A stretch of DNA of 64,000 nucleotides from Candidatus Woesearchaeota archaeon. GTDB lineage: Archaea; Nanobdellota; Nanobdellia; Woesearchaeales; UBA11576. The first letter of the stretch is position 1. Each line of letters starts with the position of its first letter. The notes under the pieces were generated by a model. It was not told where the DNA came from, made no database searches, and saw only the letters and a list, made by a program, of their open reading frames with translations. Shown here piece after piece: positions 4,689 through 25,064 of this stretch. The position numbers and the translations under genes were made by a program. The stretch spans positions 248,001-312,000 of the forward strand of contig JABJCP010000035.1 in NCBI GenBank assembly GCA_018668595.1. The letters are read 5' to 3'.

Positions 4689-4892
4689 TATTTTCAGCCT
4701 CCGTGCTGTGTTATTATATTGTTATATTGACAAAAGTTTATTTAAATCTTTCGCCTTTTTACTACTTTAAAGTCATAATCAATAAAATATTCTAAATTCT
4801 AAACAAATAAGTAGTTTGTTAGCAAAATGCGCATTTTCAAATAATATATACTTATATTGCTGAATATATTACTATTTCTTAGGGTAATGAAG

Positions 4893-5414
4893 ATGAAATA
4901 CAGAAAAGCTTATGTTCCAATAGATCCTAATAAACCAATTATGAGGGGAATCAAAACACCATCTGAATTAGAGAAAAAAGTAATTCGAGATAAGCGAGTT
5001 AATGGTATTTTTAGAAAACTAACGGATTGGTACTACAAACCTAAGTCTTTTGAGAGAAGTGGTAAGATGTATACTCGACTTGGTGTTAGGTATTTTCAAA
5101 AAGGATTGATGAATAGTTATGGTGGTCTTTTGAGGTTTCTGGGAGGAAAAAAGGGTCCTGGTAATTATTTTATTGGAAACAAGAGAACTGTATCTGATAT
5201 GGTGACTTATGAAGGCTGGACTAGATTCAATGAATTAATTCACATGCCTCTTATGTTTACTTGCGGTTATGACATGCTTGAAAATTTATCTCAAGGAAAT
5301 TATGGTGCTGCTGCAGGAGAAGGGGCATTAGTTTTGCTTAACAGTTATTGCGTATTTCTTCAACGTTACAACAGAGCTAGAGTTTACAACACATTAGATC
5401 TCAAGTTAAAATAA
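4893..5414 (+). CDS. Membrane-associated acyltransferase-like protein, paralog A
   Basis: This 173-residue protein is a paralog of the one at 6600-7124. Both share FRKLT-WYY-PKSFERSGK, then YT-LGV-YFQK-LM, and an identical end LQRYNRARVYNTLDLKLK. The layout 'FE--G-LY--LG---', ending in a hydrophobic stretch and QRYNR-R, recalls the glycosyl-4,4'-diaponeurosporenoate acyltransferase (CrtO-like) family. That assignment is tentative. Start ATG 4893 (MKYRK) is chosen because it is the position conserved in the paralog. Promoter and 3' flank are also duplicated. Confidence 0.5.
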   Translation: MKYRKAYVPIDPNKPIMRGIKTPSELEKKVIRDKRVNGIFRKLTDWYYKPKSFERSGKMYTRLGVRYFQKGLMNSYGGLLRFLGGKKGPGNYFIGNKRTVSDMVTYEGWTRFNELIHMPLMFTCGYDMLENLSQGNYGAAAGEGALVLLNSYCVFLQRYNRARVYNTLDLKLK

Positions 5415-5473
5415 TCAATTTTCAATTTTTATTTTTTATTTTTTATTTATCAATTTCTAATTTTTTGTCACAT

Positions 5474-5506
5474 GCCTAAAACATTCTATCAAAAACTAAA
5501 TAATAT
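5474..5506 (+). repeat. Interspersed intergenic repeat, copy 5
   Basis: CCTAAAACATTCTATCAAAA then ACTAAA, inside the duplicated 3' flank shared with the paralog at 6600-7124. Confidence 0.6.
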
Positions 5507-5530
5507 TATTTGTTTTTTTGTGTTGTTGTA

Positions 5531-6259
5531 TTAGTTATTGTTTAAAATTTGCTCTAGGTTAACGAATTTTGCTCCTAACTTTTTCATTTCAGCTATTGCT
5601 TTTAGTGATGTTTCCTCGGCAAATCCTCTGATGGCATCTTCAACAACATAACATTGAATTCCGAGTTTTTGCATTCCTGCTACTGCGGTTTTAATTGAAT
5701 AGTCTGTAGAAACGCCATAAACAACTGCTTCATCAATCAGCCTATCGCCTATTAATAAGAATTCCATTGCGGGATTAGAAAAAACGTCAAAATGTTCTCT
5801 TTCAACATAACTAGGATATCTTATTTGATCTGTACGTTTGATTGATTTTAACGTATAGTTTATGTAGGCATTCCATCTTCTTAATTTGAGTATGTCCTTG
5901 GTGGTTTTTAATTTAAGATTGGATTGTGAAGAAATATAAGTTCCTCGGTCGCAATATCTTTGATTGTTTTCGCGTGCAAACGCGCGAAATGTAGTTTCCC
6001 CGATTTTTAATTCTCCTTTAGTTTGGTCTATACAATAATTAGTTGAGTGTTCTATTTTTTCTGAATTGGATTTGTCTGTTGGATCGGTTGATTTATGAAA
6101 ATTTTTAATCACAGAACCGAGTATTTGGATGCTATTAGAATATGCATACTTTGTTAGTTGATGTGCTGATTGTTTAATATTTTCAGCACCAGGAACGTAA
6201 AACGCGCCGTCTTTGTTCATTAAATCATTTTGTGTATCTATATCGCAAAATATTCTCAT
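5531..6259 (-). CDS. Nicotinamidase/isochorismatase-like protein lacking the catalytic Cys
   Basis: A 242-residue protein of the cysteine hydrolase fold. The N-terminus FCDIDTQNDLM matches the family's D-x-Q-ND-- motif (D8). HFDVFSNP and VYGVSTDYSIKTAV match later motifs. In active members a Lys precedes the DVF segment and a Cys follows the TDY; here these are Arg154 and Ser188. Two of the three D-K-C residues are therefore changed, suggesting a pseudoenzyme or changed chemistry. Start 6259 is chosen because GGAG lies just upstream; a longer form would begin at 6274. It is flanked by the two paralogous membrane-protein genes on the opposite strand. Confidence 0.75.
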   Translation of the reverse strand: MRIFCDIDTQNDLMNKDGAFYVPGAENIKQSAHQLTKYAYSNSIQILGSVIKNFHKSTDPTDKSNSEKIEHSTNYCIDQTKGELKIGETTFRAFARENNQRYCDRGTYISSQSNLKLKTTKDILKLRRWNAYINYTLKSIKRTDQIRYPSYVEREHFDVFSNPAMEFLLIGDRLIDEAVVYGVSTDYSIKTAVAGMQKLGIQCYVVEDAIRGFAEETSLKAIAEMKKLGAKFVNLEQILNNN

Positions 6260-6599
6260 TTTATTTAACTCCATTTAACTTGCTTAAGTTGATAGTTTTA
6301 TTAGTGCATATTAGTGTATGATGTACAATTATATAATCGTTTGTTGTATTTATCAGGACTACATTGAATAATTAATTAAAAGACTATTTGATATTCGAAA
6401 TAGAATTTAATAATTGGTTTTTTTAAGTATGATTAATTGAATATTTTGAATGCTAAACTCTTTGGATGAATGCGGAGTTGGTTTTTCAAAGGTTTTTTGT
6501 TAACTCTAAATTATTACTAAATTAATTAGAAAAACACGTAGTTTATAATGATATGTACTTATATTCCGCGCATACTTGCTATTTCTCAGGGTAATAAAA

Positions 6600-7124
6600 A
6601 TGAAATACAGAAAACCTTACAGTCCAATAGATCCTAATAAACCAATTATTGGAGGAATTAAAAATCCATCTGATTTAGAGAGCAAAATATTGGCTAAGAA
6701 AAAGAATGATCTTGGTATTTTTAGAAAACTAACAAATTGGTATTATAGGCCTAAGTCTTTTGAGCGAAGTGGTAAACTGTATACTTGGCTAGGGGTTAAA
6801 TATTTTCAAAAAGCCTTGATGGGAACTTATGGAAAATTTATAAAAAAACTTGGAGGTGCTAGACATCCTTCAAACTATTTTGTTGGTGAAAATAGGACGG
6901 TTCCTAATATGCTGACTTACGAATCAGGAACTAGATTTAATGAATTTATTCATACTCCTTTGATATTTATTTGTGGAAAAAACACAATTCAAAGCGCATC
7001 TGAAGGAAGAATTGACGAAGCAGTTGTTCATGCAGCGTTCATGGCACTTAACTTTTACTGCACAATTCTTCAACGTTACAACAGAGCTAGAGTTTACAAC
7101 ACATTAGATCTCAAGTTAAAATAA
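6600..7124 (+). CDS. Membrane-associated acyltransferase-like protein, paralog B
   Basis: A 174-residue paralog of 4893-5414 with the same order of motifs and a hydrophobic region before QRYNRARV. Most of the protein is only about half identical to its paralog. The last ~20 codons and about 100 bases of 3' flank are nearly identical at DNA level, which points to recent gene conversion. Start ATG 6600 follows CAGGGT. Function is as uncertain as for paralog A. Confidence 0.5.
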   Translation: MKYRKPYSPIDPNKPIIGGIKNPSDLESKILAKKKNDLGIFRKLTNWYYRPKSFERSGKLYTWLGVKYFQKALMGTYGKFIKKLGGARHPSNYFVGENRTVPNMLTYESGTRFNEFIHTPLIFICGKNTIQSASEGRIDEAVVHAAFMALNFYCTILQRYNRARVYNTLDLKLK

Positions 7125-7177
7125 TCAATTTTCAATTTTTATTTTTTATTTATCAATTTCTAATTTTTTGTCACATG

Positions 7178-7209
7178 CCTAAAACATTCTATCAAAAACT
7201 AAACTAATT
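7178..7209 (+). repeat. Interspersed intergenic repeat, copy 6
   Basis: CCTAAAACATTCTATCAAAA then ACTAAA, in the duplicated 3' flank of paralog B. Confidence 0.6.
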
Positions 7210-7322
7210 CATCTATTTTATCGTCGAGAGTCGGCATTTTACTAAAAGTTTATATACTAGTTTTTCAATTATAGTTCTTGTAAAATCTCGAATTTTAAAC
7301 AAACGGAGATTAATTTTCAAAA

Positions 7323-7859
7323 ATGGAGGTGAGTATTTTCGCAAAGACTAAAATAGTTCTACAAACACATGAACCAAGTATGAATCCTACGTCAGAGGAA
7401 CTTGCAAAGATTGTTATGGCACGAATTGGACTTGAACCTAGAAAATTAGGAAGTACTGATAAAATGTATCGTTGTCTTCTTGAATTGTATGAGCGTGCAA
7501 AGGTTTCTTACAGAGAAAAAAAGTTAGAATCTTCAGTTATGACTGTCGAGGAAATGGCATTTTATGCAGGAATTACTAGGCAGACAATGTACGATTACCT
7601 CAAGCGTTGGCTTATTTTAAATTTAATAGAAAAGACTAGTTACATTAAAGAAAACAAAGTTGTTATTGGCTACAAACTCAATGGGAATACATTGGAGCAA
7701 GCTTTTGAAAAAGCACATCATAACATTACAAAGAATCTAAATGAGACAATGCAGTACATACAACAGCTTCAGAAACTAATAAAGAATGAGAAGATCAGTA
7801 ATACTCAAAAACTAAAGGCAACAGAAGATACATTAACCACAACAGATTTAGCAAGTTAG
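7323..7859 (+). CDS. Helix-turn-helix transcriptional regulator
   Basis: A 178-residue protein. Residues about 70-100 (VMTVEEMAFYAGITRQTMYD then YLKRW) form a clear helix-turn-helix with recognition helix TRQTMYDYL. The C-terminal third is helical and polar. Upstream of the HTH a conserved-looking segment KMYRCLLELYERAKVSYREK is typical of a regulator family I associate with DPANN genomes. The start ATG 7323 overlaps its own GGAGGTGA; no better downstream start with proper spacing is visible. A TATA box precedes it at about 7247. A structured RNA element begins 54 bases after its stop. Confidence 0.7.
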   Translation: MEVSIFAKTKIVLQTHEPSMNPTSEELAKIVMARIGLEPRKLGSTDKMYRCLLELYERAKVSYREKKLESSVMTVEEMAFYAGITRQTMYDYLKRWLILNLIEKTSYIKENKVVIGYKLNGNTLEQAFEKAHHNITKNLNETMQYIQQLQKLIKNEKISNTQKLKATEDTLTTTDLAS

Positions 7860-7913
7860 AATTCTAGAACAAGTACAAAAACAGCAACACTAAGTCTGCA
7901 TAATACAAACACA

Positions 7914-8095
7914 GCAGCACTACCTTGGCATACAGTTGAATTAGTTTACTAATTCAATTGTGTTAAAACGCAGTTTTGATTCTGTCAGCGACGAGCATAG
8001 CGAGAAGCTGATTTATTGTGATAAAACGGCTGATTCATGCAAGCCGTTTTAGTTATTTCAAATTCATAGAATTTGATGAATTGCCGTAGTGCTGC
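7914..8095 (+). ncRNA. Structured RNA element, copy 1 of 3
   Basis: A 182-base element with a closing stem: GCAGCACTAC-ctt-GGCA (7914-7930) pairs with TGCC-GTAGTGCTGC (8082-8095). Inside are five hairpins: 7936-7957 (TTGAATTAG/CTAATTCAA), 7963-7979 (TTAAAAC/GTTTTGA), 7985-8011 (TCAGC/GCTGA around a GA-rich loop with GC-ATA-GC), 8023-8050 (AAAACGGCT/AGCCGTTTT with loop GATTCATGCA) and 8059-8075 (CAAATTC-ATA-GAATTTG). Two further copies share the architecture with compensatory base changes. Plus strand is preferred because of the GA-rich internal loop and position after a plus-strand gene; strand is not proven. Function unknown. Confidence 0.75.
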
Positions 8096-8388
8096 AAAAA
8101 ATAAGTAGTCAAGTAGATCTATATTTCTAAAAAATAAGTCTCACAACATCTCATCAAAACCTAAATCTTTCCATCAAAAATAAACTAAAACATTCAATCA
8201 AAAACTAAATTCTATAAACACTACAAATTAAGAAATAATCCAAACACATTGTCGACAAAACACCAATTCAACACAATCAAATAATAAAATAAATATTATC
8301 CAATAACAAAGTAGAAATAAAACAAACATGAATAATTAAAATAAAAACAATTGTCGAAATAATACAAACAGAAAAATATCAAATTTAA
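8096..8388 (+). other. Intergenic, G-poor
   Basis: No gene is visible. The region is almost free of G on this strand and contains one clear and one degenerate copy of the interspersed repeat. It separates the RNA element from a convergent ATPase gene. Confidence 0.5.
8184..8223 (+). repeat. Interspersed intergenic repeat, copy 7
   Basis: ACTAAAACATTCAATCAAAA then ACTAAATTCTATAAACACTA. A weaker copy (CTAAATCTTTCCATCAAAAA) sits immediately before it at about 8160. Confidence 0.55.
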
Positions 8389-9564
8389 TCAAACTTGTTT
8401 TGTTTCAAAAAAGTGAGTGTTAAAAAACTCGGAGCCTTTGGCCATAATTTTCTTTTTTCCTTTTACAGATTCAAATACTTTTTTTTGCTTAGTGGTTAAT
8501 TCAGAATTATACTTTGCTTCAATTAAATATTCTTTAGTGATAAAATCTATTTCAGTTAAATTTTCAATAAAATAACTAGGATTAAGATGTTTAATTTTCA
8601 GAAATACTAAGTTTTCATAACTAGCACCTAAATCTCTAAATCCTGTAATCATATTTTTAATGCCGACATCCCCTATATATATTTTCTTTGGAGCGGTAGT
8701 TTGCTGATTGTGAGATTTTGCAAATTTGTCGACGGTGTAAAACAAATATGCTTTTTCAAAATAATTTACAAATCGTTTAATAGAATCCACTGAAATATGG
8801 AGAATTCTAGAAAGTTTATTATAACTTATTATTTTACCTGCGCGCTCACATAAAAGCACAAACAATTCTTTAATAATTTTTTCATTTGTAATTTTATAGT
8901 TTACTATTATATCTTTGTAGATTATACTTTGAACTAATTCATTTAAATATTCTTTATCTTCTGTAATAACATATTGTGGAATTCCTCCAATTTTCAGATA
9001 ATCTTTAAAATATGATTCTTTAAGTTCTTGATCTGCTTTTGAAATTTTGATTTTTTTGAAATCTAAAAATTCTTGGAATGTTAAAGGCATTACTTCGATT
9101 GTTTTTGTTCGTCCAGTTAACAAAGAACTTTTATCTCTCATTAACGTTGCAATGGAGGAAGAACATATCACTTTAATATTTTCTGAGTCATAGATGCTTT
9201 TCAGTTCTTGTTCAAATTCATCTTTGGCAGTTACTTCATCAAGAATTAAATAAAAAAAATCCTTAACAGATTTTTTATGAATTTCCCTGTATTTTTCAAT
9301 TATCTGATGAATGTTAAAGTTCAAGAGTTTAAATGTATCAAGACTAACATAGCATATATCTGTTGGTTCGGTATTTTCTAATAATTTTGAGATTATTTGT
9401 TTAAGAATTGTTGTTTTTCCAATTCTGCGAAGTCCTGTAAGAAATATAATTTCTTTTGAATCTAAATTGCTTATTATTTTTTCTACGTAAAATTCTCGTT
9501 TAATGCTACTCTCTTCAAATTTTGATTCCCACCAAGCGTTTTGTTTAAAGAGTTCTGATTCCAT
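8389..9564 (-). CDS. AAA-type ATPase (AAA_14 plus DUF4143 type)
   Basis: A 391-residue protein with Walker A GLRRIGKT at residues 44-51 and Walker B FFYLILDEV. Sensor-like segment ICSSSIATLM and TGRTKTIEVMPLTFQEFL follow, typical of the archaeal/bacterial AAA_14-DUF4143 family. The C-terminal part (YIGDVGIKNM, then IDFITKEYLIEAKYN) matches DUF4143, including its nuclease-like ID--EAKY. Start ATG 9564 is chosen because a TATA box TTTATAAA lies about 26 bases upstream, consistent with a leaderless mRNA. Cellular role of this family is not settled. Confidence 0.85.
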   Translation of the reverse strand: MESELFKQNAWWESKFEESSIKREFYVEKIISNLDSKEIIFLTGLRRIGKTTILKQIISKLLENTEPTDICYVSLDTFKLLNFNIHQIIEKYREIHKKSVKDFFYLILDEVTAKDEFEQELKSIYDSENIKVICSSSIATLMRDKSSLLTGRTKTIEVMPLTFQEFLDFKKIKISKADQELKESYFKDYLKIGGIPQYVITEDKEYLNELVQSIIYKDIIVNYKITNEKIIKELFVLLCERAGKIISYNKLSRILHISVDSIKRFVNYFEKAYLFYTVDKFAKSHNQQTTAPKKIYIGDVGIKNMITGFRDLGASYENLVFLKIKHLNPSYFIENLTEIDFITKEYLIEAKYNSELTTKQKKVFESVKGKKKIMAKGSEFFNTHFFETKQV

Positions 9565-9586
9565 ATGACACAAAAAGTTAAACTAG

Positions 9587-9594
9587 TTTATAAA
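9587..9594 (-). promoter_or_regulatory. TATA box of the ATPase gene
   Basis: TTTATAAA centred 26 bases upstream of ATG 9564, implying transcription starts at or next to the start codon. Confidence 0.6.
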
Positions 9595-9597
9595 CTT

Positions 9598-9644
9598 TAC
9601 GATATAATAGTACAAATTATGAATTTTTGTACGATGTCATCGTA
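9598..9644. promoter_or_regulatory. Nested inverted repeat upstream of the ATPase promoter
   Basis: Outer arms TACGAT/ATCGTA (9598-9603 and 9639-9644) enclose inner arms GTACAAA/TTTGTAC (9610-9616 and 9626-9632). It lies directly upstream of the TATA box, where an activator or repressor could bind. Confidence 0.4.
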
Positions 9645-9712
9645 TAGTTTTTAAATAAGACTATGTTTTTAAATTTAATAATTTATTTAATATTTCAAAA
9701 GAAAAGTGAAGA

Positions 9713-10249
9713 TTAGCTAAGATTTTTCCCAACAATTATTCCGCTAGTCCCATCAGCATAAAATCTTGGAACTAATACCAAATCTTTAAAATTGAATTTT
9801 TTAAGTAAATGGTATGATTCTCCGTTTACACCTTTCCAACAAGTTGCATAAGTTTGTTTAGAATCTGTTTTTTTTATATCTTCTAAAATTCGATTAACTA
9901 ATTCAACGCCTATTCCTTTTTTTCTATAATCTTTTTTTACTGCGAGCATTTCAATAGCTTTTGCATTTTCTTCATACTTAAAGTCTGAATAAAATGCTGT
10001 TGAATCTTCATAAAGAAGTCTTTCTAAATCAGGAATTGTTCGATAAAGTCCAAAACCAACAGGAACATTATTCTCATAAGCCATCACAACTCCAGTTCCA
10101 GGATTATTTAACCAAGGAAGAATTATTGGAAGATATTCTGCTTTAGATTCACGACCATTAGGGCCTTTGAATAATTCAAATGCTAAATCTAGAACAAACT
10201 CGGGGTCAGATTCGTTTTTGAATGCATTAGATATTAACTCTATTGCCAT
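9713..10249 (-). CDS. GNAT family N-acetyltransferase
   Basis: A 178-residue protein. AIEMLAVKKDYRKKGIGVEL is the acetyl-CoA binding motif A of GNAT enzymes (R-x-x-G-x-G type loop, here YRKKGIG). The preceding strand NNVPVGFGLYRTI and the C-terminal LKKFNFKDLVLVPRFYADG fit the fold. Substrate is unknown. TATA-like CTTTAAATAG lies about 25 bases upstream on the minus strand, so the mRNA may be leaderless. It is divergent from the caspase-like gene, with a 22-base palindrome between them. Confidence 0.8.
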   Translation of the reverse strand: MAIELISNAFKNESDPEFVLDLAFELFKGPNGRESKAEYLPIILPWLNNPGTGVVMAYENNVPVGFGLYRTIPDLERLLYEDSTAFYSDFKYEENAKAIEMLAVKKDYRKKGIGVELVNRILEDIKKTDSKQTYATCWKGVNGESYHLLKKFNFKDLVLVPRFYADGTSGIIVGKNLS

Positions 10250-10291
10250 AATCGTGTAGATTTAGAAGGTGCTATTTAAAGTTTATTATTA

Positions 10292-10313
10292 TTAACCACT
10301 ACCAAGTGGTTAA
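10292..10313. promoter_or_regulatory. Palindrome between divergent promoters
   Basis: TTAACCACT-acca-AGTGGTTAA, perfect nine-base arms, between the acetyltransferase and caspase-like genes. The 11-mer TTAACCACTAC also occurs twice near the Fic promoter at 34.5 kb. Confidence 0.5.
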
Positions 10314-10380
10314 AAAGCGAAAGATTTATAAATAGTAATCAGTTTAGAAGCTCTAAATATTAAATTTGTGTTGAGATAAA

Positions 10381-12501
10381 ATGGCGAAAAAATTAAAAGA
10401 AGATTTATCGAAATCATTAGACCAGAGATTAAAAGATGAGCTTAATTTTTCTGATAAAGATGTTGATTCCTTTAAATCTGCTCGTTTTTCTTTACGTGCA
10501 GATCAACCTTCAAAAAAATTAGAGTTAATTGAACAAAATCCTGATTTATTGTTTAAGTATGTTCGGGTTTGTAAGGATCTATTTCCTAAATACTACTTCT
10601 ACTTGGGTGGATTAACTGCAATTTGGAAATGTCCAATTGATTTTTATGAAAAATTAGATACTCTTACAGAAATCTTAGATCATATTAGTGCAAAGCCAGA
10701 ATATGCTTCTACAGATTGGCTTACATCAGGTTTCAACCATCTATTTGAAAACAAAAAACTTTATACTAAATTAAAACAAAACAAAAAATATGTTTTAGAA
10801 TTATTTGAACGTTTTGGTTTAGCAGCAGTAAGTTTACTTCAGTTACCTAACCGAGAAGTTTTGAAATTTACTGATGAATTCGAAGAAATTTGTAAATATG
10901 TAAAATCTGATTCAAAAAAATCATTAGATTGTATCAATAAACGTAGAGATTTTATTAATTCTCAAAATTTATCTTATATTATTGAATTTGCAAAAAGTAT
11001 TGAAGGAGATGAAACTTACTCTTTGAGCGGCGCATTTACTTTATCTGCACTTGGAAAATTTGATATTGGCGAAAAAAAATCTTGGGAACTTTTAAAAAAA
11101 TATAGGAGTGGTATGTGGGGTTTGCTTAATGGTTTAGATGAAGTTAAATTATCTAAATACAATCAAAGACCAGATTGTTTTTTTAAATTTGAAGAAACGT
11201 ATGGTTGGATAACGGATATAATTTTAGATTTTTCATCACGTAAAAATTTTGATTTCGTTATTAATCAATTAAATACATATAATTTTCTTGAGTGGTTTGA
11301 AAAACCTAGTTATTTATTGAGATGCATTCCTGAATCTTCAGTAGATTTAGAAACAATTAATAAACTCCCTGATGAGTTTTTGAATGCGAATCCAGAACAC
11401 ACATTGGATTTATTCAAGCGTTATGGTTGTGCTGTTTTTTCTGTTCTTGAAAAAGAATTTAAAAATCCTGGCTTTGAAAAAAAGCATAGATCGTTTATTG
11501 AAAAAGTGAGTGAGTATGATCCTGAAGGTGATTGGTTAAGAACTATTGATGTTGATTTGATTGAGTCTCGACCAGAATTTGTATTAGAATTAGCAAAACA
11601 TGCGAAATATTGTACGCATAATGTTTTTGAATTATTCGGGTATATAGATCAGAAGATGCTTGAGTCTATATTAAATTCAGAAGAAGACATTCTTAAAATT
11701 GCAAAGTTGGCAGGAGTTGGTGCTGCAGGAGCAATTCATAGATATCATGATGAATTAAACAATCCCAAACTAGTAAAAAAAAGATTAAAAGTTTGTGAAA
11801 AAAATAAAGAATTATTTGGCATTACTCATTTTGGTCGTTATGAACCAGAAACTTTAGAAGAAAATCTACAAAATTTAGAAACTCCTAATGATGGTTCTAA
11901 ACCTATTTGTTTGTCTATTCTTAATCAGTACGATTGGAATACTGCATTTGAAACTAATAAAGTGATTGGTAAGTTAGGAAGATTTAGCAAAGGATACAGA
12001 TTTGTAAATTATGAAACTGATAATTCTCCTGATATTTTTAGAATAATTAAAGAAACTTATGAGCGAGAAGGAGAAATTTCAGTATTGCTTTTAGGCGGAC
12101 ATGGAACTTCTGTCTCAATGTGTTATGGGCATAGCCTTTATACAGATAATTTGCATTCCAGCGATGACATAATTGATTCAGGCCAAGGAGAAAAATATTT
12201 TTCAGTTTTAGATCAAGAAAAATTAGCAGAATTAGAATATTGTTTTGCTCCTGACGCAAAGATTGTTTTAATGGGTTGCAGTAATGCGAAAAAAAACTAT
12301 TGGTCAAATGAAGATAATTTAATGAAATCAGTTTCAAAAGCACTTCCTGGAAGAAGAGTTTATGCACCCAAAGAAGATTGTAATGTTATAAATCCAAAAT
12401 TCTACAAAACAGGATTACTCAAAACTGTTCAATTTCAATGGTGGGATGACATGGAAGGAAAATCAATAAGAAATCTTTCAGCTTCAATTTGTCAGAGATG
12501 A
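10381..12501 (+). CDS. Caspase-like (clan CD) cysteine peptidase with long helical N-terminal region
   Basis: A 706-residue protein. Near the C-terminus, ISVLLLGGHGT (His574) and KIVLMGCSNAK (Cys633), 59 residues apart, form the His-Gly/Cys dyad of the caspase/CHAT/gingipain clan, each preceded by a hydrophobic strand. Residues ~1-500 are a leucine-rich helical array with recurring 'P--L-LFKRYG', 'PEFVLELAKHA' and 'KKYVLELFERFG' segments, likely alpha-solenoid repeats that could sense a partner. No signal peptide is visible, so it is probably cytosolic. In other prokaryotes such proteases are often defence or cell-death effectors. Here an integrase remnant and an AbiE toxin-antitoxin pair follow. 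The peptidase call is well supported; the role is inferred. Confidence 0.75.
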   Translation: MAKKLKEDLSKSLDQRLKDELNFSDKDVDSFKSARFSLRADQPSKKLELIEQNPDLLFKYVRVCKDLFPKYYFYLGGLTAIWKCPIDFYEKLDTLTEILDHISAKPEYASTDWLTSGFNHLFENKKLYTKLKQNKKYVLELFERFGLAAVSLLQLPNREVLKFTDEFEEICKYVKSDSKKSLDCINKRRDFINSQNLSYIIEFAKSIEGDETYSLSGAFTLSALGKFDIGEKKSWELLKKYRSGMWGLLNGLDEVKLSKYNQRPDCFFKFEETYGWITDIILDFSSRKNFDFVINQLNTYNFLEWFEKPSYLLRCIPESSVDLETINKLPDEFLNANPEHTLDLFKRYGCAVFSVLEKEFKNPGFEKKHRSFIEKVSEYDPEGDWLRTIDVDLIESRPEFVLELAKHAKYCTHNVFELFGYIDQKMLESILNSEEDILKIAKLAGVGAAGAIHRYHDELNNPKLVKKRLKVCEKNKELFGITHFGRYEPETLEENLQNLETPNDGSKPICLSILNQYDWNTAFETNKVIGKLGRFSKGYRFVNYETDNSPDIFRIIKETYEREGEISVLLLGGHGTSVSMCYGHSLYTDNLHSSDDIIDSGQGEKYFSVLDQEKLAELEYCFAPDAKIVLMGCSNAKKNYWSNEDNLMKSVSKALPGRRVYAPKEDCNVINPKFYKTGLLKTVQFQWWDDMEGKSIRNLSASICQR

Positions 12502-12509
12502 TTAGCTTA

Positions 12510-12721
12510 CAGTTTTTACATTTTAAGATATAATTACGCAACATGTAGTTTGGAGCAAGGTGTTGATTTGTATTATATTCAACGAATTCTTGGGCATACT
12601 GGTGTGACCATTTACAAATGTTAAAGCTAAATTTGTTAGTGGTAAGTTGAGCAGAGATGAATTTAAAGAGAAGTATTTGTTGTTAAATAGTCTTGAAAGT
12701 GTTAATTGTGGTGTTTTTTAA
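12510..12721 (+). pseudogene. Remnant of a tyrosine recombinase C-terminus
   Basis: Reading from about 12510 gives ILRYNYATCSLEQGVDLYYI then QRILGHTGVT, matching the C-terminal catalytic block of Xer-type integrases (HxLRHSYATHLLE-G-D---IQ-LLGH). Both the expected His-x-x-Arg and the Tyr region are damaged: the HSYATH stretch reads NYATCS, and the frame shifts near 12612, after which TNVKAKFVSGKLSRDEF continues in another frame to a stop at 12721. No N-terminal part is present. It marks an old mobile-element or integration event. Confidence 0.7.
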
Positions 12722-12773
12722 CGAAACATTTTTATATTATAAGGTGTCAATAAGTATCACTTTATGATTTAAA

Positions 12774-13403
12774 ATGAAATATGGATTATTAGTGAAAAAA
12801 TTGAATTTAATTGATAAGAATATTATTGTGTCTGATGATTTGAAGAGCTATTGCTCTATTTTAAAGATGGAGTATCTTGATGCTATTAAATATTTAATTA
12901 GGCATAAGTATCTTCATCGCATTATGAGGGGAATTTTTTATAATCCTTCAATTAGAGAGCGAAAGATGGGTGGGTTTGATATTACTTATAGAGAAGCAAT
13001 TGTTAAGGCTTTGGAAATTAAAGGGGTAAATGATTGGTATTTTGGGCTTGAAACTGCACTTAAACTTAACAATCTCACACACGAATTTTTTGTTGTTGAT
13101 TACATTCTAAATGATAAAATTAGTAGACGTAAGTCTTTAGAAGTTTTTGGTAACAAAATAAAATTTGTTAAAGTTAAACCCAAACTTTGTAAGTTAGGTA
13201 TTAAAAAGTTGAAGTATATGAAATTTTCTGATGTTGAGAAAACTATTCTTGATTTTGTTTATTTGTTAAAATACAGGGGTTTTTCTGATGCTATTGTAAA
13301 AAATAAAATTATTGATTATTTAGAATTTGCTTCGAAAGAAAAATTATTAAGTTATTCAAAAAAATATAATAAAAAAGTCGAAGAGTTTGTGAGGTCACTG
13401 TGA
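12774..13403 (+). CDS. abiEi: AbiEi-type antitoxin/transcriptional regulator
   Basis: A 209-residue protein with an N-terminal winged-helix region: LKMEYLDAIKYLIRHKYLHR then IMRGIFYNP, the typical AbiEi pattern. The middle part ITYREAIVKALEIKG then NDWYFGLETALKLNN and SDVEKTILDFVYLL match the AbiEi C-terminal domain. It is the antitoxin and probable autorepressor of a type IV toxin-antitoxin pair. Its stop overlaps the toxin start by four bases (GTGA). A TATA-like TTTTTATATTATAA lies at about 12729. Confidence 0.8.
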   Translation: MKYGLLVKKLNLIDKNIIVSDDLKSYCSILKMEYLDAIKYLIRHKYLHRIMRGIFYNPSIRERKMGGFDITYREAIVKALEIKGVNDWYFGLETALKLNNLTHEFFVVDYILNDKISRRKSLEVFGNKIKFVKVKPKLCKLGIKKLKYMKFSDVEKTILDFVYLLKYRGFSDAIVKNKIIDYLEFASKEKLLSYSKKYNKKVEEFVRSL

Positions 13404-14308
13404 AAGATTTAATTATTTATTTGGCAGATACTTTAAAGATTAAGAATCATTTACTATTAGAAAAAGATATTCTTCTTCACAGAATTTTAATTAGATTAAT
13501 GAATACTTCTTTTAAAGAAAATTATGCTTTTAAAGGAGGGACTTGCCTTACCAAGTGCTATCTTGGTTATTATCGTTTCTCAGAAGATTTAGATTTTACT
13601 TTTATTCATCAAAATGAGTTTGAAGGGTTTAGCCAAAAAAAGTTAAGAAAAATATTATCTAAAAAAATCAATAAAGTTTTAGAACAGCTTGTTCTTCTAG
13701 CTAAAGATTTGAAACTTGATTTCAAATTAGACAAGTCAGATTCAAGATATGTGGTGCTTGGTGGTAACAATAAATTTGTAACATTTAAATTATGGTATAA
13801 ACCAGTAGTTGGAGTTAAAGAAGAGTTCATAAAAGTTCAAATAAACTATTATGAATTAATTATTAATAATATTGTTAAAATGCAAGCCCATAGTTTATTT
13901 TCTTCAATACCTAAAAACGAAATTGAACTGCTTCAACCAGAGCATGTTGATTTAATAGATGACGTTGAACTTATGGCTTATTCTTTGAACGAGATTTTTC
14001 TTGAAAAAATAAGAGCTATTCTTACAAGGAGAGGAACAAAAAGCAGAGATTATATTGATTTGTATTTGATAACAGAAAAAATAAATGTTAATTTTGAGAA
14101 AGAAGAAGAAAATATTTTAAGAAAGATTAAATTTATGTTGGTTTATGATAAGTATCTGCAAAATTTGTCTGTTATTAATCCTGAGAATTTAATTCTTGGC
14201 GAAGAAGAAAATCTTCTTTTAGAACCGCTTGATAAAAATTTTGAAAAATTCTTGCCTAGTTTTTTTGAATATTTAAAACAATTAGAAGAAAAATTAAATG
14301 CTAAATAG
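13400..14308 (+). CDS. abiEii: AbiEii-type nucleotidyltransferase toxin
   Basis: A 302-residue protein starting at GTG 13400, overlapping the AbiEi stop by four bases. FKGGTCLTKCYLGYYRFSED then LDFTF is the GG-(T/S)...S-DLDF nucleotidyltransferase motif of AbiEii toxins. ELMAYSLNEIFLEKIRAILT then RRGTKSRDYIDLYLI matches the downstream conserved helix with the R-RDYIDL segment. Toxins of this family add nucleotides to RNA, for example the 3' end of tRNAs in studied homologs; the target here is unknown. All key motifs look intact. Confidence 0.85.
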   Translation: MKDLIIYLADTLKIKNHLLLEKDILLHRILIRLMNTSFKENYAFKGGTCLTKCYLGYYRFSEDLDFTFIHQNEFEGFSQKKLRKILSKKINKVLEQLVLLAKDLKLDFKLDKSDSRYVVLGGNNKFVTFKLWYKPVVGVKEEFIKVQINYYELIINNIVKMQAHSLFSSIPKNEIELLQPEHVDLIDDVELMAYSLNEIFLEKIRAILTRRGTKSRDYIDLYLITEKINVNFEKEEENILRKIKFMLVYDKYLQNLSVINPENLILGEEENLLLEPLDKNFEKFLPSFFEYLKQLEEKLNAK

Positions 14309-14411
14309 TGAACAATTGTTTACTGTAGAGTATTTTTTTTGGGTAACTGTGTTGGCAACTATTCATTATCAAAATCAATATTGTCTAAACAAAAAAACAA
14401 ATCTTCCAATT

Positions 14412-14918
14412 TCATTTCTTCAGCATTATCTCAACAACATTCTTCAATTTATTATCTCTAACAGTCAATAAATTTAATCTATCGACCACACATTCAAAAT
14501 CTAATTCATGATTTTGTCGTATTTCTTTTATTGCGCGATTAATCTCGGCTCTAGATTCAAAAACTCCTAATGTCAAATGTGGAATTACTGGGATCTTTTT
14601 CAAATATTTTTTATATTTTGACTTGTAAAATCTTTTATGAATTTTATTAATAACCGACTTACCCTTTCCAACAATTAAATACAAATAATATTCTGTTGGT
14701 GATGCACAAACTCCTCGAAGTCGCATTTCAAACTTACCAATTCCAGAAACTGATTTCTTAATCTGTAATAAAATTTCTTTTTTGGATTCAGAAGAAGGAA
14801 TTGGATAAACAACAGTAACATGAGGTTTAATATTAGCACATCCAGGATCATATTTCCGACGTATCTTTTGAATAGATTTTTGTTTAATCTTGGGAAATAT
14901 TGTTATTGCGTAGATCAT
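14412..14918 (-). CDS. 2H phosphoesterase (2'-5' RNA ligase/LigT family)
   Basis: A 168-residue protein carrying two HxTx motifs, PHVTVVYP (about residue 33) and PHLTLGVF (about residue 113), that form the 2H phosphoesterase active site. Family members act on 2'-5' or cyclic phosphates in RNA or nucleotides. It overlaps the upstream tandem Lrp regulator gene by four bases (ATGA), so the two are co-translated. The link between an Lrp-type regulator and a 2H enzyme is unexplained. Confidence 0.8.
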   Translation of the reverse strand: MIYAITIFPKIKQKSIQKIRRKYDPGCANIKPHVTVVYPIPSSESKKEILLQIKKSVSGIGKFEMRLRGVCASPTEYYLYLIVGKGKSVINKIHKRFYKSKYKKYLKKIPVIPHLTLGVFESRAEINRAIKEIRQNHELDFECVVDRLNLLTVRDNKLKNVVEIMLKK

Positions 14919-15895
14919 TTTATCAACTCTTTTGGGAAGTAATCTATTTTGTATTCATCAAATATTATTATTGATTCATATGTTTTTATAACGTCTGAAA
15001 ACTTTTCTTTTAATTCTAGCAAAACTTCTTTAAACTCTTTTGTATCTTTGACGTGTATGTCGAGCATTAAATTATAATTTCCAATTGTATTTGTCACGTA
15101 ATAAATATTGTCTTGTTCTTTGCAAAAATTAATGAATTCATTTTTTCTTTTTTTATTTGTGAGTTGAAATTGTATCAATAACAGATGCCATTGAAAACCT
15201 AATTTGCTAACATTTATTTTGGGTTTAAAACCTTCTATTATTTGTTCTTTAATTAATTTTTTTAAATTATATCTTACTGTGTGAACTGGAATTTTTGTTT
15301 TTTGCGATATTTGAAATGCATTTAGTCTTGCATTTTGAGAAATTGTTTCAATTATTTTTTTGTCTTGGTTATTTAATTCTACTAGTTTTAATTTTTCAGT
15401 TTGTTTAATTTTATTTGTATTTTTAGTTTTGAGAAATTTATAGTGTATATGTTCTGATGTGATTAAGTTAGTAAACGAATATTCGTGAACATGTTCTCCG
15501 CATAGATCTAATATTTCACTAAGTAGTTCATCAAATTCTGAAATTGATTTTGAGTATGTTAATAGAATTAGATCCCATCTTCCTGTTCCACTAACTAGCC
15601 AACCAACATAATTTAGTTTAGTTAATTTTTTTATTAAGTTTTGTTCTTGTTCTTTGTTTATTTTTTGTAGTTGTAAAAACACATAGTTTGAGTTTAATCC
15701 TAATCGACCTACATTAATTATTGTATAGAAATTGGTTATTATTTTTTTATTAATTAGTTTTTGTATTCTGTAATTAATTACTTGTTTGCTTACGCCTATT
15801 TTATTTGAAATTAGAGTATCTGATTGTCTGGCATCTGCATCTAATTGAGCAAGGAGTTTTCTATCTTTTTCATCTATGTCCAAAATATAAGTCAT
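14915..15895 (-). CDS. Tandem Lrp/AsnC-type transcriptional regulator
   Basis: A 326-residue protein made of two Lrp/AsnC units. Unit one has an HTH (DEKDRKLLAQLDADARQSDT then LISNKIGVSKQVINYRI) and a RAM-like ligand domain. Unit two begins at LNNQDKKIIETISQNARLNA then FQISQKTKIPVHTVRYNLKK and repeats the arrangement. Such double-length Lrp proteins appear again at 63446. No cofactor-binding residues can be assigned by eye. It is the first gene of a two-gene operon with the 2H phosphoesterase. Confidence 0.8.
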   Translation of the reverse strand: MTYILDIDEKDRKLLAQLDADARQSDTLISNKIGVSKQVINYRIQKLINKKIITNFYTIINVGRLGLNSNYVFLQLQKINKEQEQNLIKKLTKLNYVGWLVSGTGRWDLILLTYSKSISEFDELLSEILDLCGEHVHEYSFTNLITSEHIHYKFLKTKNTNKIKQTEKLKLVELNNQDKKIIETISQNARLNAFQISQKTKIPVHTVRYNLKKLIKEQIIEGFKPKINVSKLGFQWHLLLIQFQLTNKKRKNEFINFCKEQDNIYYVTNTIGNYNLMLDIHVKDTKEFKEVLLELKEKFSDVIKTYESIIIFDEYKIDYFPKELIK

Positions 15896-16019
15896 ATTCT
15901 TTATTAAGTAATAAATAGTATATAAATTTTATCATTTTGTCAATTTAATTACTGCAAAATTTTAAATATAGGTATAGTACTATTGAGTAGTATTAAAATT
16001 GAATTGAGGTGAATTGAAT

Positions 16020-16436
16020 ATGAATATTCAAAATATTAAAAATAAAATAGTACAAAAAACAAAAAGAGCAGTAGATTGCGGAATTACAATTGGTGTGTTA
16101 ACGCTTTTTGGAGCAAGTATAACTATTGCAGTAAACGCGCCATTAATTCCAATTCAAGCAGGAATAGAATGTTTGCTTGACGAAGACCAAATAACTGCAG
16201 AAGGGACTTTAATGGAAATAAAATCCAGAACAATGATGCAGACAAAAGGTATGCTTTATTCGGGAGTTTTTGAATTAGATTCTGGAGAAACTATTGAGTT
16301 GTATGATTCGTCTAGAATTCTTGAAGGTAAATATTTTGCAAACAGCATTATGCTGAATTTAGAAATTGGAGAAAAATATGTGATGGAATTTCAAGGTTCT
16401 GATATGTTGGGCTATGTTATTACAGACACAAATTAA
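16020..16436 (+). CDS. Small single-pass membrane protein
   Basis: A 138-residue protein with one membrane helix near residues 20-45 (ITIGVLTLFGASITIAVNAP) and a C-terminal domain starting AEGTLMEIKSR, rich in beta strands, that ends in EKYVMEFQGSDMLGYVI. The arrangement is like small DUF1523-type proteins, but the family signature is not clear. ATG 16020 is chosen because GAGGTGA lies seven bases upstream. Single gene. Function unknown. Confidence 0.55.
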   Translation: MNIQNIKNKIVQKTKRAVDCGITIGVLTLFGASITIAVNAPLIPIQAGIECLLDEDQITAEGTLMEIKSRTMMQTKGMLYSGVFELDSGETIELYDSSRILEGKYFANSIMLNLEIGEKYVMEFQGSDMLGYVITDTN

Positions 16437-16544
16437 TTTTTTTTATTTGATTTTAGTTTTTTATTTGCTTTTAACCAAAACATTTATATATAAAACACGT
16501 TTTAATATTAAAATATATTGTAAATCTAAAATTTGGAGGTCAAA

Positions 16545-16820
16545 ATGGAATTTGCTATAACTAAACTTTCACAAAACGGTCAGGTCGTTATACCGTCTGA
16601 AATAAGAAAAGATGCTAATCTGGCGCCATCAACTAAATTTATTGTCTTTAATCAAGGAGGAAATATTTTGCTAAAACAGGTGACAAAAGAAGCACTATTA
16701 AGAGAAATGCAGCTTGCAGAATCAATTTTGAGAAGTGAAGAAGAAATAGCCAAAGGAAAAGTGACTAGAGTAAATGCAAAAATGTCTGATAATGAAATCG
16801 ATTCTTTATTGATGGACTAA
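16545..16820 (+). CDS. AbrB/MazE/SpoVT-fold antitoxin
   Basis: A 91-residue protein whose first half, TKLSQNGQVVIPSEIRKDAN then LAPSTKFIVFNQGG, is the swapped-hairpin AbrB fold used by antitoxins to bind DNA. The C-terminal half is a charged helix that probably wraps the toxin. ATG 16545 follows GGAGGT. It is immediately followed by a RelE-like toxin gene. TATA sequence CATTTATATATAAAA lies upstream at about 16480, so the pair is likely autoregulated here. Confidence 0.8.
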   Translation: MEFAITKLSQNGQVVIPSEIRKDANLAPSTKFIVFNQGGNILLKQVTKEALLREMQLAESILRSEEEIAKGKVTRVNAKMSDNEIDSLLMD

Positions 16821-17075
16821 GTGACTAAAATGGAAATTATTTTTTCAGAGAGTTTCAAAAAAGATTTTAAAAGAATAAAAGAGAAATCACTTAGATTGAG
16901 GTTAATTAAACAGATTAAAAAATTAGCTACGCTTCCTGATTCTGGAAAACCACTTAAACACAATCTAAAAAATCATAGATCAATTAGGATTCCTCCATTT
17001 AGAATTATTTATAGAATTGAAGATGATAAAATCATTATTAATTGTTTTGATCATAGAAAAGCAGTGTATAAATGA
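16821..17075 (+). CDS. RelE/ParE-family toxin
   Basis: An 84-residue basic protein starting at GTG 16821 directly after the antitoxin stop (an in-frame ATG is at 16830). SESFKKDFKRIKEKSLRLRL, GKPLKHNLKNHRSIRI and FRIIYRIEDDKIIINCFDHR are the classic order of RelE-superfamily elements. They end with the conserved DHR-AVYK tail. Likely a ribosome-dependent mRNA interferase or related toxin; target not deducible. Confidence 0.85.
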   Translation: MTKMEIIFSESFKKDFKRIKEKSLRLRLIKQIKKLATLPDSGKPLKHNLKNHRSIRIPPFRIIYRIEDDKIIINCFDHRKAVYK

Positions 17076-17171
17076 TTGTTCCCTACTCTTTCAGCAAACT
17101 TTATATAATTTAAAATAATAAACATTGATTAATCAAATTTACTTTAAAAAGTAATAAATGAGGCGATATAT

Positions 17172-17618
17172 ATGAGTTTTTTTCATCAAACATTTAATAA
17201 ATTCTATGAACTTTGGCACAAAGCAATAACAATTCATGATCATGGAAAGGATCTAAATGAATGTTTTCATACAATTAACCAGCTTCAGGATGAAGCAGAT
17301 ACTAGCATTAGAATTATTAATGGGGAGATAACTTCATTAGAAAAGGTTAGTAGTGATTCTGCAGAACTTGCTAGTAAATTGAGTTGTGCTAAAGACGCAC
17401 TTAACAAACTTATTAAAGATGGTAGTAAAGAACGTTATGAGTTTATGTTAAGAAAAAAACCAGAAGCTGAATTTAATGAATATAGGCGTAAAATAAGAAA
17501 CCACATTAGCGAAATCACGCAAGAGTTAGTAAGATGTCATGATTTATTCAAAGAACTTGACAAAGATCACGAATTACTAAAAGACAAAGAACACAAGTTC
17601 GTAGAAGAAATACAATAA
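17172..17618 (+). CDS. Hypothetical helical protein
   Basis: A 148-residue protein, almost entirely predicted helix by composition, with heptad-like leucine spacing between about residues 30 and 145. No signal peptide or membrane helix. A GAGGCG ribosome site sits before ATG 17172. Not recognised. It is a stand-alone gene convergent with the patatin-like gene. Confidence 0.5.
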   Translation: MSFFHQTFNKFYELWHKAITIHDHGKDLNECFHTINQLQDEADTSIRIINGEITSLEKVSSDSAELASKLSCAKDALNKLIKDGSKERYEFMLRKKPEAEFNEYRRKIRNHISEITQELVRCHDLFKELDKDHELLKDKEHKFVEEIQ

Positions 17619-17637
17619 ATTTAATTTTTTTCTTTTT

Positions 17638-18897
17638 TCATCCGAACCTAAACTCATACTTCTCCAAAGCTTTATCTGCAGATTCGTATCCTTTCTTAAC
17701 CATTCGTTCAATATAGCTTTTGCTCATTCCCATGTGCCATTCTAAAAAGAAGTCTTCGTCGTTAGGATCTGGGTGAATAAATACATAATCCACATTTCTT
17801 TTAATGTCTAAATTAGAAACTAAATCTCCGACAAGTGATTCTCGACTAGAAACTAAAAAATCTTCAAACTGAGGCATTTTTTTAATTAATTTTTCGTACT
17901 CATCTTGCACTCTATCATGAACATAATTTTTCTCATTATTTGCTTTTCTGGACGCAAGTATTTTTTCTTCTATCAATAAGTATACTGATTGAATTACTGT
18001 TTTAATCAAACCAAATTTTTTTATTGATCCAATTTCTGGTTTGAATTGATAAGGTACGTGAGTGTATGAAACGAAAACTAAATCTGCTCCGTTGTCAGAT
18101 GCAATTTTGTAGGACAATGTTTTTCTTGTTTCTCCGTCAACAACATCTATTTTTTCTCCATTTTTGTGTTCAATACAAAAAGGATAGAAAAATTGTAAAG
18201 AGCAAGATCCTGCAACTGTCGAAGAAATATTTGCATCATTTCTGTAAATTATTCTCCCATTTTCTTGGTGATCTTTTCTGCAATATACTATTCGTTTAGT
18301 TTGATTAAGAGGTGTTGTCACAATAAATAAATCTGATGCTACTTTTGTAAAATCTTCTGTGTCTAAAAATTTGTGGAGTTTTTTTTCTAATGGGCCTAGA
18401 TGTATTGGACTCATTATTGCAAGTGATTCTGGATTTATTCTTTTTTTTAGTATTTTTTTTGCACTTTTTAGCGCTTGAGTTATTGCTTGGGTATTTAGTG
18501 ATGCGTAATGTAGTACGCCTCTTCGCAGTCCTGACTTTCGCAGTAGCCAATCGTTCATAAAAAGGTCGCGCATTTCTTCTGGTGAGTATCCCATTGCAAC
18601 GCCTATTCCAAAAAGTGCTCCGCCACTTGAGCAAACATACATGTCTATTTTGTTATTTCCTTCTGGACCGGGTAATAATAAGTCTGTTTTTGATCTTGAA
18701 AGAACACCTCCACTGAACTTAAATCCTACTTCCTCAAGTCGCATTCCAACGCCCATATGAAAGAAATGTGCTTTTAGACCGCCGCCACTAGCAACCATTG
18801 CATTACGTCGTTTACCAGAAATTATAATTTTCTCTAGGTCGCTATTAGTGTATGTCTCTATCATATTATTAGCTATGTAGGTGGTATTTTTAAACAT
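17638..18897 (-). CDS. Patatin-like phospholipase
   Basis: A 419-residue protein. MVASGGGLKAHFFHMGV (about residues 34-50) is the glycine-rich oxyanion loop. VCSSGGALFG places the nucleophile at Ser91 within C-S-S-G-G instead of the usual G-x-S-x-G. DVVDGE supplies the catalytic Asp254-Gly255. The Ser-Asp dyad therefore looks complete although the nucleophile elbow is atypical. No signal peptide is visible, so it likely acts on the inner membrane face. Bacterial patatins can be defence effectors, but nothing nearby indicates that. Single gene. Confidence 0.8.
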   Translation of the reverse strand: MFKNTTYIANNMIETYTNSDLEKIIISGKRRNAMVASGGGLKAHFFHMGVGMRLEEVGFKFSGGVLSRSKTDLLLPGPEGNNKIDMYVCSSGGALFGIGVAMGYSPEEMRDLFMNDWLLRKSGLRRGVLHYASLNTQAITQALKSAKKILKKRINPESLAIMSPIHLGPLEKKLHKFLDTEDFTKVASDLFIVTTPLNQTKRIVYCRKDHQENGRIIYRNDANISSTVAGSCSLQFFYPFCIEHKNGEKIDVVDGETRKTLSYKIASDNGADLVFVSYTHVPYQFKPEIGSIKKFGLIKTVIQSVYLLIEEKILASRKANNEKNYVHDRVQDEYEKLIKKMPQFEDFLVSSRESLVGDLVSNLDIKRNVDYVFIHPDPNDEDFFLEWHMGMSKSYIERMVKKGYESADKALEKYEFRFG

Positions 18898-24958: not shown

Positions 24959-25064
24959 ACATAACAATCAAAGATGTGTTTATAAATGTTTTCCGAATAT
25001 ATTACTACTGATGAGTGATCAATAATCGGAACATTTATATATTAGTTCAAGACAAAAATTACTT

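Follow-up and report, generated by a model that had tools for sequence, protein, structure and literature searches.

Caspase-type proteases are classic cell-death switches, and to our knowledge their roles in archaea are barely known. One published account puts the number of archaeal p20 (caspase-like) proteins at 93 (PMC6426788), and another places the catalytic His and Cys of clan CD at the C-terminal ends of the third and fourth core strands (PMC4357240). Among the systems closest to the locus described here, the TPR-CHAT protein Csx29 (Craspase) carries a TPR part that, as described in PMC10028731, relays activation to its CHAT site, and Tce1, a Pseudomonas T6SS effector (PDB 9qpe, annotated DUF4347 in the PDB), is presented in PMC13323088 as an injected protein; PMC8262886 and PMC10907252 are further literature cited. 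We set these and other clan CD systems beside one gene, P0001, from a 64,000-nt stretch of a Candidatus Woesearchaeota genome, hereafter the window.

P0001 (10381-12501, + strand) encodes a 706-aa caspase-like protein. Its ATG start sits two codons past the preceding stop, its 706-codon frame compares with a longest stop-free run of at most 184 codons in 20 mononucleotide shuffles of the window, its GC content is 0.295 against 0.293 for the window, and the 2.3-Mb genome holds this one copy only. Neither Rfam nor a tRNA scan found a match in the window. The whole protein matched no Pfam family at E<=1 and only chance-level entries in a PDB sequence search. A first-pass annotation of this DNA had called it a caspase-like peptidase with His574 in LLLGGHGT and Cys633 in VLMGCSN. 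Both motifs are present as described in the 706-residue protein, and the caspase reading is sound, backed as it is by a family profile, by the invariance of His and Cys, and by fold searches, in which caspases and CHAT proteases come up; the defence role offered with it is one of several readings. P0001 is very probably a protein-cutting enzyme related to the enzymes of animal programmed cell death. With about even confidence we propose, more specifically, that it is a cytosolic, array-gated clan CD cysteine protease whose regulated promoter supplies it on demand.

The domain belongs to a family. When the whole protein was searched against 287 genomes of its order, the last ~220 residues were matched in six others (E<1e-8), with weaker matches besides; weak matches to the N-terminal part (L009, L013, L015 and others) were dropped, since by eye they belong to AsnC-type or otherwise unrelated proteins. 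Built from nine domains, a profile (A1) finds the caspase-like domain in 41 of 352 order genomes (22 of the 180 of good quality), with two to four copies in some of them, and a 32-domain profile has matches in 31 of 371 genomes sampled from the phylum. The genomes searched hold no orthologue of full-length P0001, and within its own taxonomic family one other genome has the domain alone. No relative turned up when full-length P0001 was searched against viral contigs, plasmids and phages, nor in a genome-contig search with P0001 alone, and the family profile matched nothing in viral contigs. Relatives from named collections come from Candidatus Woesearchaeota or Nanoarchaeota MAGs at 8 of 9 loci, the ninth being a Bacteroidales MAG; the member there (L063, 5410-6534) has neighbours that look bacterial by eye, possibly a case of inter-domain transfer. 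Another member (L017, 3364-10086, - strand) is a 2,241-residue frame with two caspase-like domains, both retaining His and Cys, and further long same-strand frames upstream may form one larger gene with it.

Across this family, the columns of His574 (codon 12100-12102, + strand) and Cys633 (12277-12279, + strand), the predicted catalytic pair, are invariant in 32 of 32 distinct domains. A larger alignment has 47 rows, one of them a fragment short of the sites and two repeating one domain, and its His and Cys sites are H and C in all 46 rows that reach both; with such constancy the two residues go beyond chance motifs. Around the dyad, the motifs KPxA, GHG, SCS(T)G and NLA are conserved in the 32 distinct domains. 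Clan CD pseudo-enzymes exist in bacteria according to PMC6426788, and P0001 might likewise be an inert scaffold that has kept the caspase fold. We think this very improbable, since H and C stay constant in those 46 rows where most other columns vary. For the active protease that we favour, Asp518 (codon 11932-11934, + strand) is a candidate S1-pocket acid: it belongs to YDWNTAF and sits after strand 1 and before helix 1, and of 47 rows 40 have Asp at the corresponding position of the DWN(G/T)AF motif. Its placement near the start of helix 1 resembles that of MALT1 Asp365 and RgpB Asp163, the comparators for an S1 role in PMC4357240, and hints, if the residues are equivalent, at a P1 preference for Arg or Lys. 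For the same role another conserved Asp, near 611-612, was weighed and dropped: residue 612 of P0001 is Gln, and the larger alignment shows no conservation in that column.

The conserved C-terminal region (residues 477-706; 11809-12498, + strand), supported by profile and fold searches, consists of a GITHFxRY linker and the caspase-like domain. In an AlphaFold2 model of P0001, built with nine relatives, mean pLDDT is 54.8 and blocks of the C-terminal core reach 92-93. Core strands 509-515, 540-546, 566-572 and 622-631 alternate with helices; His574 follows the third, which ends at 572, and Cys633 the fourth, which ends at 631. The modelled topology of the pair is thus the one required of clan CD as laid out in PMC4357240. 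Foldseek searches of the PDB with this model returned mostly caspases, plus SAVED-CHAT, at E values of about 0.01 and above. In a second structural search all 50 rows listed are caspases or SAVED-CHAT, the latter at Z 9.7 (140 aligned, 4.3 A) and caspases at Z about 8-9. The caspase-1 row, 1sc4, aligns P0001 504-639 to 158-291; were the end of that alignment ungapped, caspase-1 Cys285, its position taken from the title of the 1sc4 entry (C285A), would fall on residue 633, which agrees with the dyad and is no proof of it. The domain of a relative, L055, models far better (pLDDT 87.7, pTM 0.89), and its core strands likewise end just before His and Cys. It matches SAVED-CHAT (Z 11.2), Tce1 (Z 11.0), TPR-CHAT (Z 9.5), RgpB (Z 9.3), a Vibrio cholerae RTX domain (Z 8.5) and caspases; judged by entry names, 48 of the 50 rows listed are clan CD proteases, alone or within a complex, and the other two are DdvA. 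On these models, and among the structural matches listed, the C-terminal ~200 residues of P0001 have the caspase-haemoglobinase fold of clan CD.

None of the described systems coincides with P0001. DUF4347 (PF14252) is the commonest Pfam match among the 32 relatives (13 of 32, best E 6.8e-9), and Tce1 is the second-ranked structural match of the L055 model (147 aligned, 18% identity) and the only PDB chain matched by the family profile (E 0.97). Tce1 and P0001 have in common a putative His/Cys dyad and an extra N-terminal part. P0001 differs in its other N-terminus, its archaeal origin, the lack of any secretion system in evidence, and the lack of Pfam matches: the DUF4347, PF00656 and CHAT (PF12770) models all miss it, and its domain alone matches no family at E<=0.1. 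TPR-CHAT and SAVED-CHAT proteins, which are among the top structural matches, resemble it in having a helical or sensory part ahead of a C-terminal clan CD protease; unlike them, and in contrast to the type III-E CRISPR locus in which TPR-CHAT sits beside Cas7-11, P0001 has no Cas gene of any kind and no SAVED gene or domain in a Pfam scan of nine neighbours (4857-18897), and the Pfam CHAT model matches only 1 of the 32 relatives, at 0.064. With orthocaspases and metacaspases (Peptidase_C14) it shares fold, dyad and archaeal occurrence, yet of the 32 relatives PF00656 picks up two (best E 6e-4), and it leaves P0001 unmatched. The MARTX/TcdB cysteine protease domain (C80) and gingipain (C25) are likewise structural matches to L055, through the RTX domain and RgpB respectively, but the relatives have no Pfam sequence match to either. 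NCBIfam has no model that convincingly matches the domain. Among the literature matches listed for Woesearchaeota caspases or promoter motifs, DUF4347 and DPANN cysteine peptidases, there is no account of this family or of the promoter element described below; what is new here is the extent of the family, its invariant dyad, its mixture of cytosolic and exported members, and the promoter element.

The front half of P0001 (residues 1-480; 10381-11820, + strand) had been read as helical repeats, in the manner of an alpha-solenoid. DSSP of the AlphaFold2 model assigns 349 of these residues to helix and 0 to strand, at block pLDDT values of 33-74. Residues ~31-205 align to ~240-406 with a self Smith-Waterman score of 62 against a shuffle mean of 39.8, and 1 of 400 shuffles scores as high. 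The helical part of that reading thus stands in a low-confidence model, and its repeats come down to one internal duplication; the Pfam TPR model does not match P0001. Much stronger repeats precede the caspase-like domain in L034, L041 and L107, the three relatives tested, and judged from sequence the combination of a repeat array with this domain is a recurrent one in the family. By eye the arrays of L107 and L109 resembled that of P0001; a repeat profile of related cytosolic members failed to match it, however, with 150 of 500 shuffles scoring as high, and common descent of the arrays is therefore unsupported. In the mechanism we propose, a partner or ligand would bind the helical array and so arrange the active site or bring in the substrate, much as the TPR part of Csx29 does, and the C-terminal domain would then cut proteins, its His574/Cys633 dyad perhaps cleaving after Arg or Lys.

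Where the protein would act is a question on which the family divides. A strongly hydrophobic N-terminus, lipobox-like in several members, is present in 31 of the 39 with a complete 5' end, which excludes a cytosolic role for the family as a whole. P0001 has none (best 15-mer mean 0.16). A tree of 40 domains unites it with L017 (two domains), L033, L004, L007, L047 and L091 in a group of eight that is supported at 95/98, and within this group L017 and L033 also lack a hydrophobic N-terminus. By their N-termini, then, most relatives look exported and P0001 does not. The exported look of those 31 members, the injected fold neighbour Tce1, and the occurrence of the promoter element described below ahead of SLT transglycosylase, matrixin-like metallopeptidase and lipoprotein genes would all suit a protease directed at a host or neighbour, leaving the cell by an unrecognised route as part of a symbiotic or predatory life. 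For P0001 itself we consider this quite unlikely, its own N-terminus and those of its close relatives L017 and L033 being what they are, and we retain the cytosolic protease. In one locus of the family, L056 (3196-5671), three tandem, similar lipoprotein-like ORFs lie downstream of the caspase-like gene.

The surroundings of P0001 had suggested a small defence-like island to the first-pass annotation. Its elements are real: the gene is followed by 41 codons left over from the C-terminus of a tyrosine recombinase (12502-12624, + strand; PF00589 positions 127-159, E 0.18), 42% identical over 31-33 aa to two integrase copies in the same genome, and then by an AbiEi/AbiEii toxin-antitoxin pair (12774-14308, + strand; PADLOC AbiEi E 7.5e-43 and AbiEii E 7e-63, PF08843 E 4e-28). 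Together with a PDC-S01-type ATPase (PADLOC, E 9.5e-74) the pair lies within 3 kb of P0001. One could therefore picture a defence executioner, whose array detects a viral or plasmid product and whose protease kills or arrests the cell by abortive infection, alongside AbiE and PDC-S01; the closeness of its fold to the SAVED-CHAT and TPR-CHAT defence proteases is to the same effect, as are nucleotidyltransferase genes near the cytosolic relatives L109 and L017. Several findings go the other way. P0001 matches no PADLOC family, although an absent model excludes nothing, and the 32 relatives have no convincing match there either (4 weak ones, one member each). Homologue loci, read by eye and uncounted, hold mostly housekeeping or cell-envelope genes, with no conserved partner. 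Those targets of the promoter element that can be recognised are not genes typical of defence. P0001's genome has AbiEii-type genes at 3 places, and PF01909 nucleotidyltransferases number 8, 15 and 23 in three genomes, common enough that adjacency may be chance. We judge the executioner unlikely. As an island, the stretch keeps its AbiE pair and integrase relic and is weakened by its window-like GC content and by relatives that live among ordinary genes, so that the label is possible but unproven; the defence or cell-death role attached to it goes unsupported, for want of a PADLOC match or a conserved partner and with 31 of 39 relatives looking exported. An island/empty-site comparison with a same-genus genome (G002) failed, the flanking genes lying at unrelated places.

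Three cytosolic members have nucleotidyltransferase-type genes close by: the AbiEii gene of the pair at 12774-14308 in the window, and genes at L109 673-1236 and L017 846-1496, the types represented being AbiEii, Polbeta/NTP_transf_2 and DUF2204. A functional link was considered and set aside as post hoc, such genes being common in these genomes. At another locus (L107, 439-2832, genome G345) a caspase-like gene is directly followed by a protein-kinase gene, in a genome with four caspase-like genes. Elsewhere in the window, two similar CrtO-like genes lie about 1.2 kb apart (4857-5414 and 6576-7124), the first matching PF18927 (E 5e-12) and the second recognised by eye.

Upstream, P0001 faces away from a GNAT acetyltransferase gene (9713-10249, - strand; PF00583 E 5e-13), and the palindrome that the two had been said to share in their promoter region proves both real and recurrent. 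It reads TTAACCACT-ACCA-AGTGGTTAA (10292-10313, between the two genes) and, given its recurrence in the genome, is a putative operator. On the P0001 side it is followed in fixed register by the BRE-like AAAGCGAAA and the TATA-like TTTATAAATA (10314-10334, + strand), facing the P0001 gene; at the same distance on its other side a TATA-like TTTAAATAG (10272-10280, - strand) faces the acetyltransferase, with 4 mismatches to the extended pattern of palindrome, BRE and TATA. With up to 2 mismatches the palindrome has 12 sites in P0001's genome, against 1 for the reversed pattern. When the 12 are oriented by their TATA, each has a BRE-like, A-rich stretch, which contains GAAA at 10 sites, and then a TATA-like box, in the same register throughout save for one shifted by 1 nt. 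The extended pattern was fitted to this genome, in which it has 19 sites at up to 3 mismatches and its reversed control 0; other genomes are an independent test. Ten genomes of the taxonomic family give 54 sites (control 0), nine of the ten having it, and 208 of 334 order genomes carry it, with 0 for the reversed control among the matches listed. As 39 of 112 assigned first genes start 28-34 nt past the TATA (11 of 54 within P0001's family and 28 of 58 outside it), a spacing shared with leaderless archaeal genes, the element is supported as a set of true, leaderless promoters. A recurrent DNA switch thus appears, from its sequence, to control the P0001 gene. In P0001's genome (G000) the sites lie at 12 loci, L115-L126, plus L127-L134, and a weaker copy with 4 mismatches stands at 25004 (+ strand) of the window.

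The element is also tied to the caspase-like family. With up to 5 mismatches and spacing +-1, it stands before 9 of the 44 different caspase-like genes, compared with 6 of the 197 remaining ORFs of those loci (Fisher 2.3e-4, or 7.5e-4 without P0001; reversed pattern 0 of 44). Three mismatch thresholds were tried and chosen after looking; at 3 mismatches the counts are 4 against 2 (0.011) and at 4 mismatches 6 against 3 (0.0015). Outside P0001's own family, 60 stretches were picked from the listed sites with up to 2 mismatches; two lacked a usable gene, and no caspase-like gene comes first at any of the 58 assigned sites. Genes first behind the element are mostly without recognisable function and follow no single functional theme. 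In P0001's family they include protein kinases (4 of 50), a matrixin-like metalloprotease, an SLT transglycosylase, a calcineurin-like phosphatase and lipoproteins, and in other families TFB (2 of 57), GH15, a response regulator and PPDK-like proteins.

In our proposal the palindrome, upstream of BRE and TATA, would be the site of a regulator through which P0001 is expressed on demand, although we infer the inducibility; the same regulator would serve at least 18 other promoters in the genome and, in the opposite orientation, probably the acetyltransferase too. Such a switch could equally belong to a house-keeping or stress protease that carries out regulated proteolysis of the cell's own proteins, with no death involved. 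The four protein kinases, two TFB, GH15-like, response regulator and PPDK-like genes behind the element would fit a general response regulon of this kind. Against it, neither a partner nor a substrate gene is conserved, and the distribution is patchy (41 of 352 order genomes); we rate it as possible, though rather unlikely. From sequence it cannot be told whether death, defence, attack or remodelling is the end served. Returning to the array-gated protease made on demand, a larger and more speculative picture, one that we think improbable as a whole, is of an inducible regulon common to Woesearchaeales, under one palindrome-binding regulator, with caspase-like proteases as executioners that are cytosolic and array-gated here and exported in most relatives. 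If true, episymbiotic archaea would possess a caspase-centred programme of death, attack or remodelling, with its own sensors, kinases and switch. As it is, a family with an invariant active site and interchangeable helical or repeat front parts is tied to an order-wide promoter element, and that element offers a handle on hardly cultivable organisms, as it predicts genes that switch together, which can be checked in metatranscriptomes.

Two sets of genes behind the element recur between genomes. In two genomes of another family it precedes a TFB gene (L209, 1024-1932; L211, 1030-1944, - strand), and the regulon may accordingly include this general transcription factor. In three families (L160, L189 and L220) it precedes GH15-like genes that are 52-57% identical to one another, a possible conserved core target.
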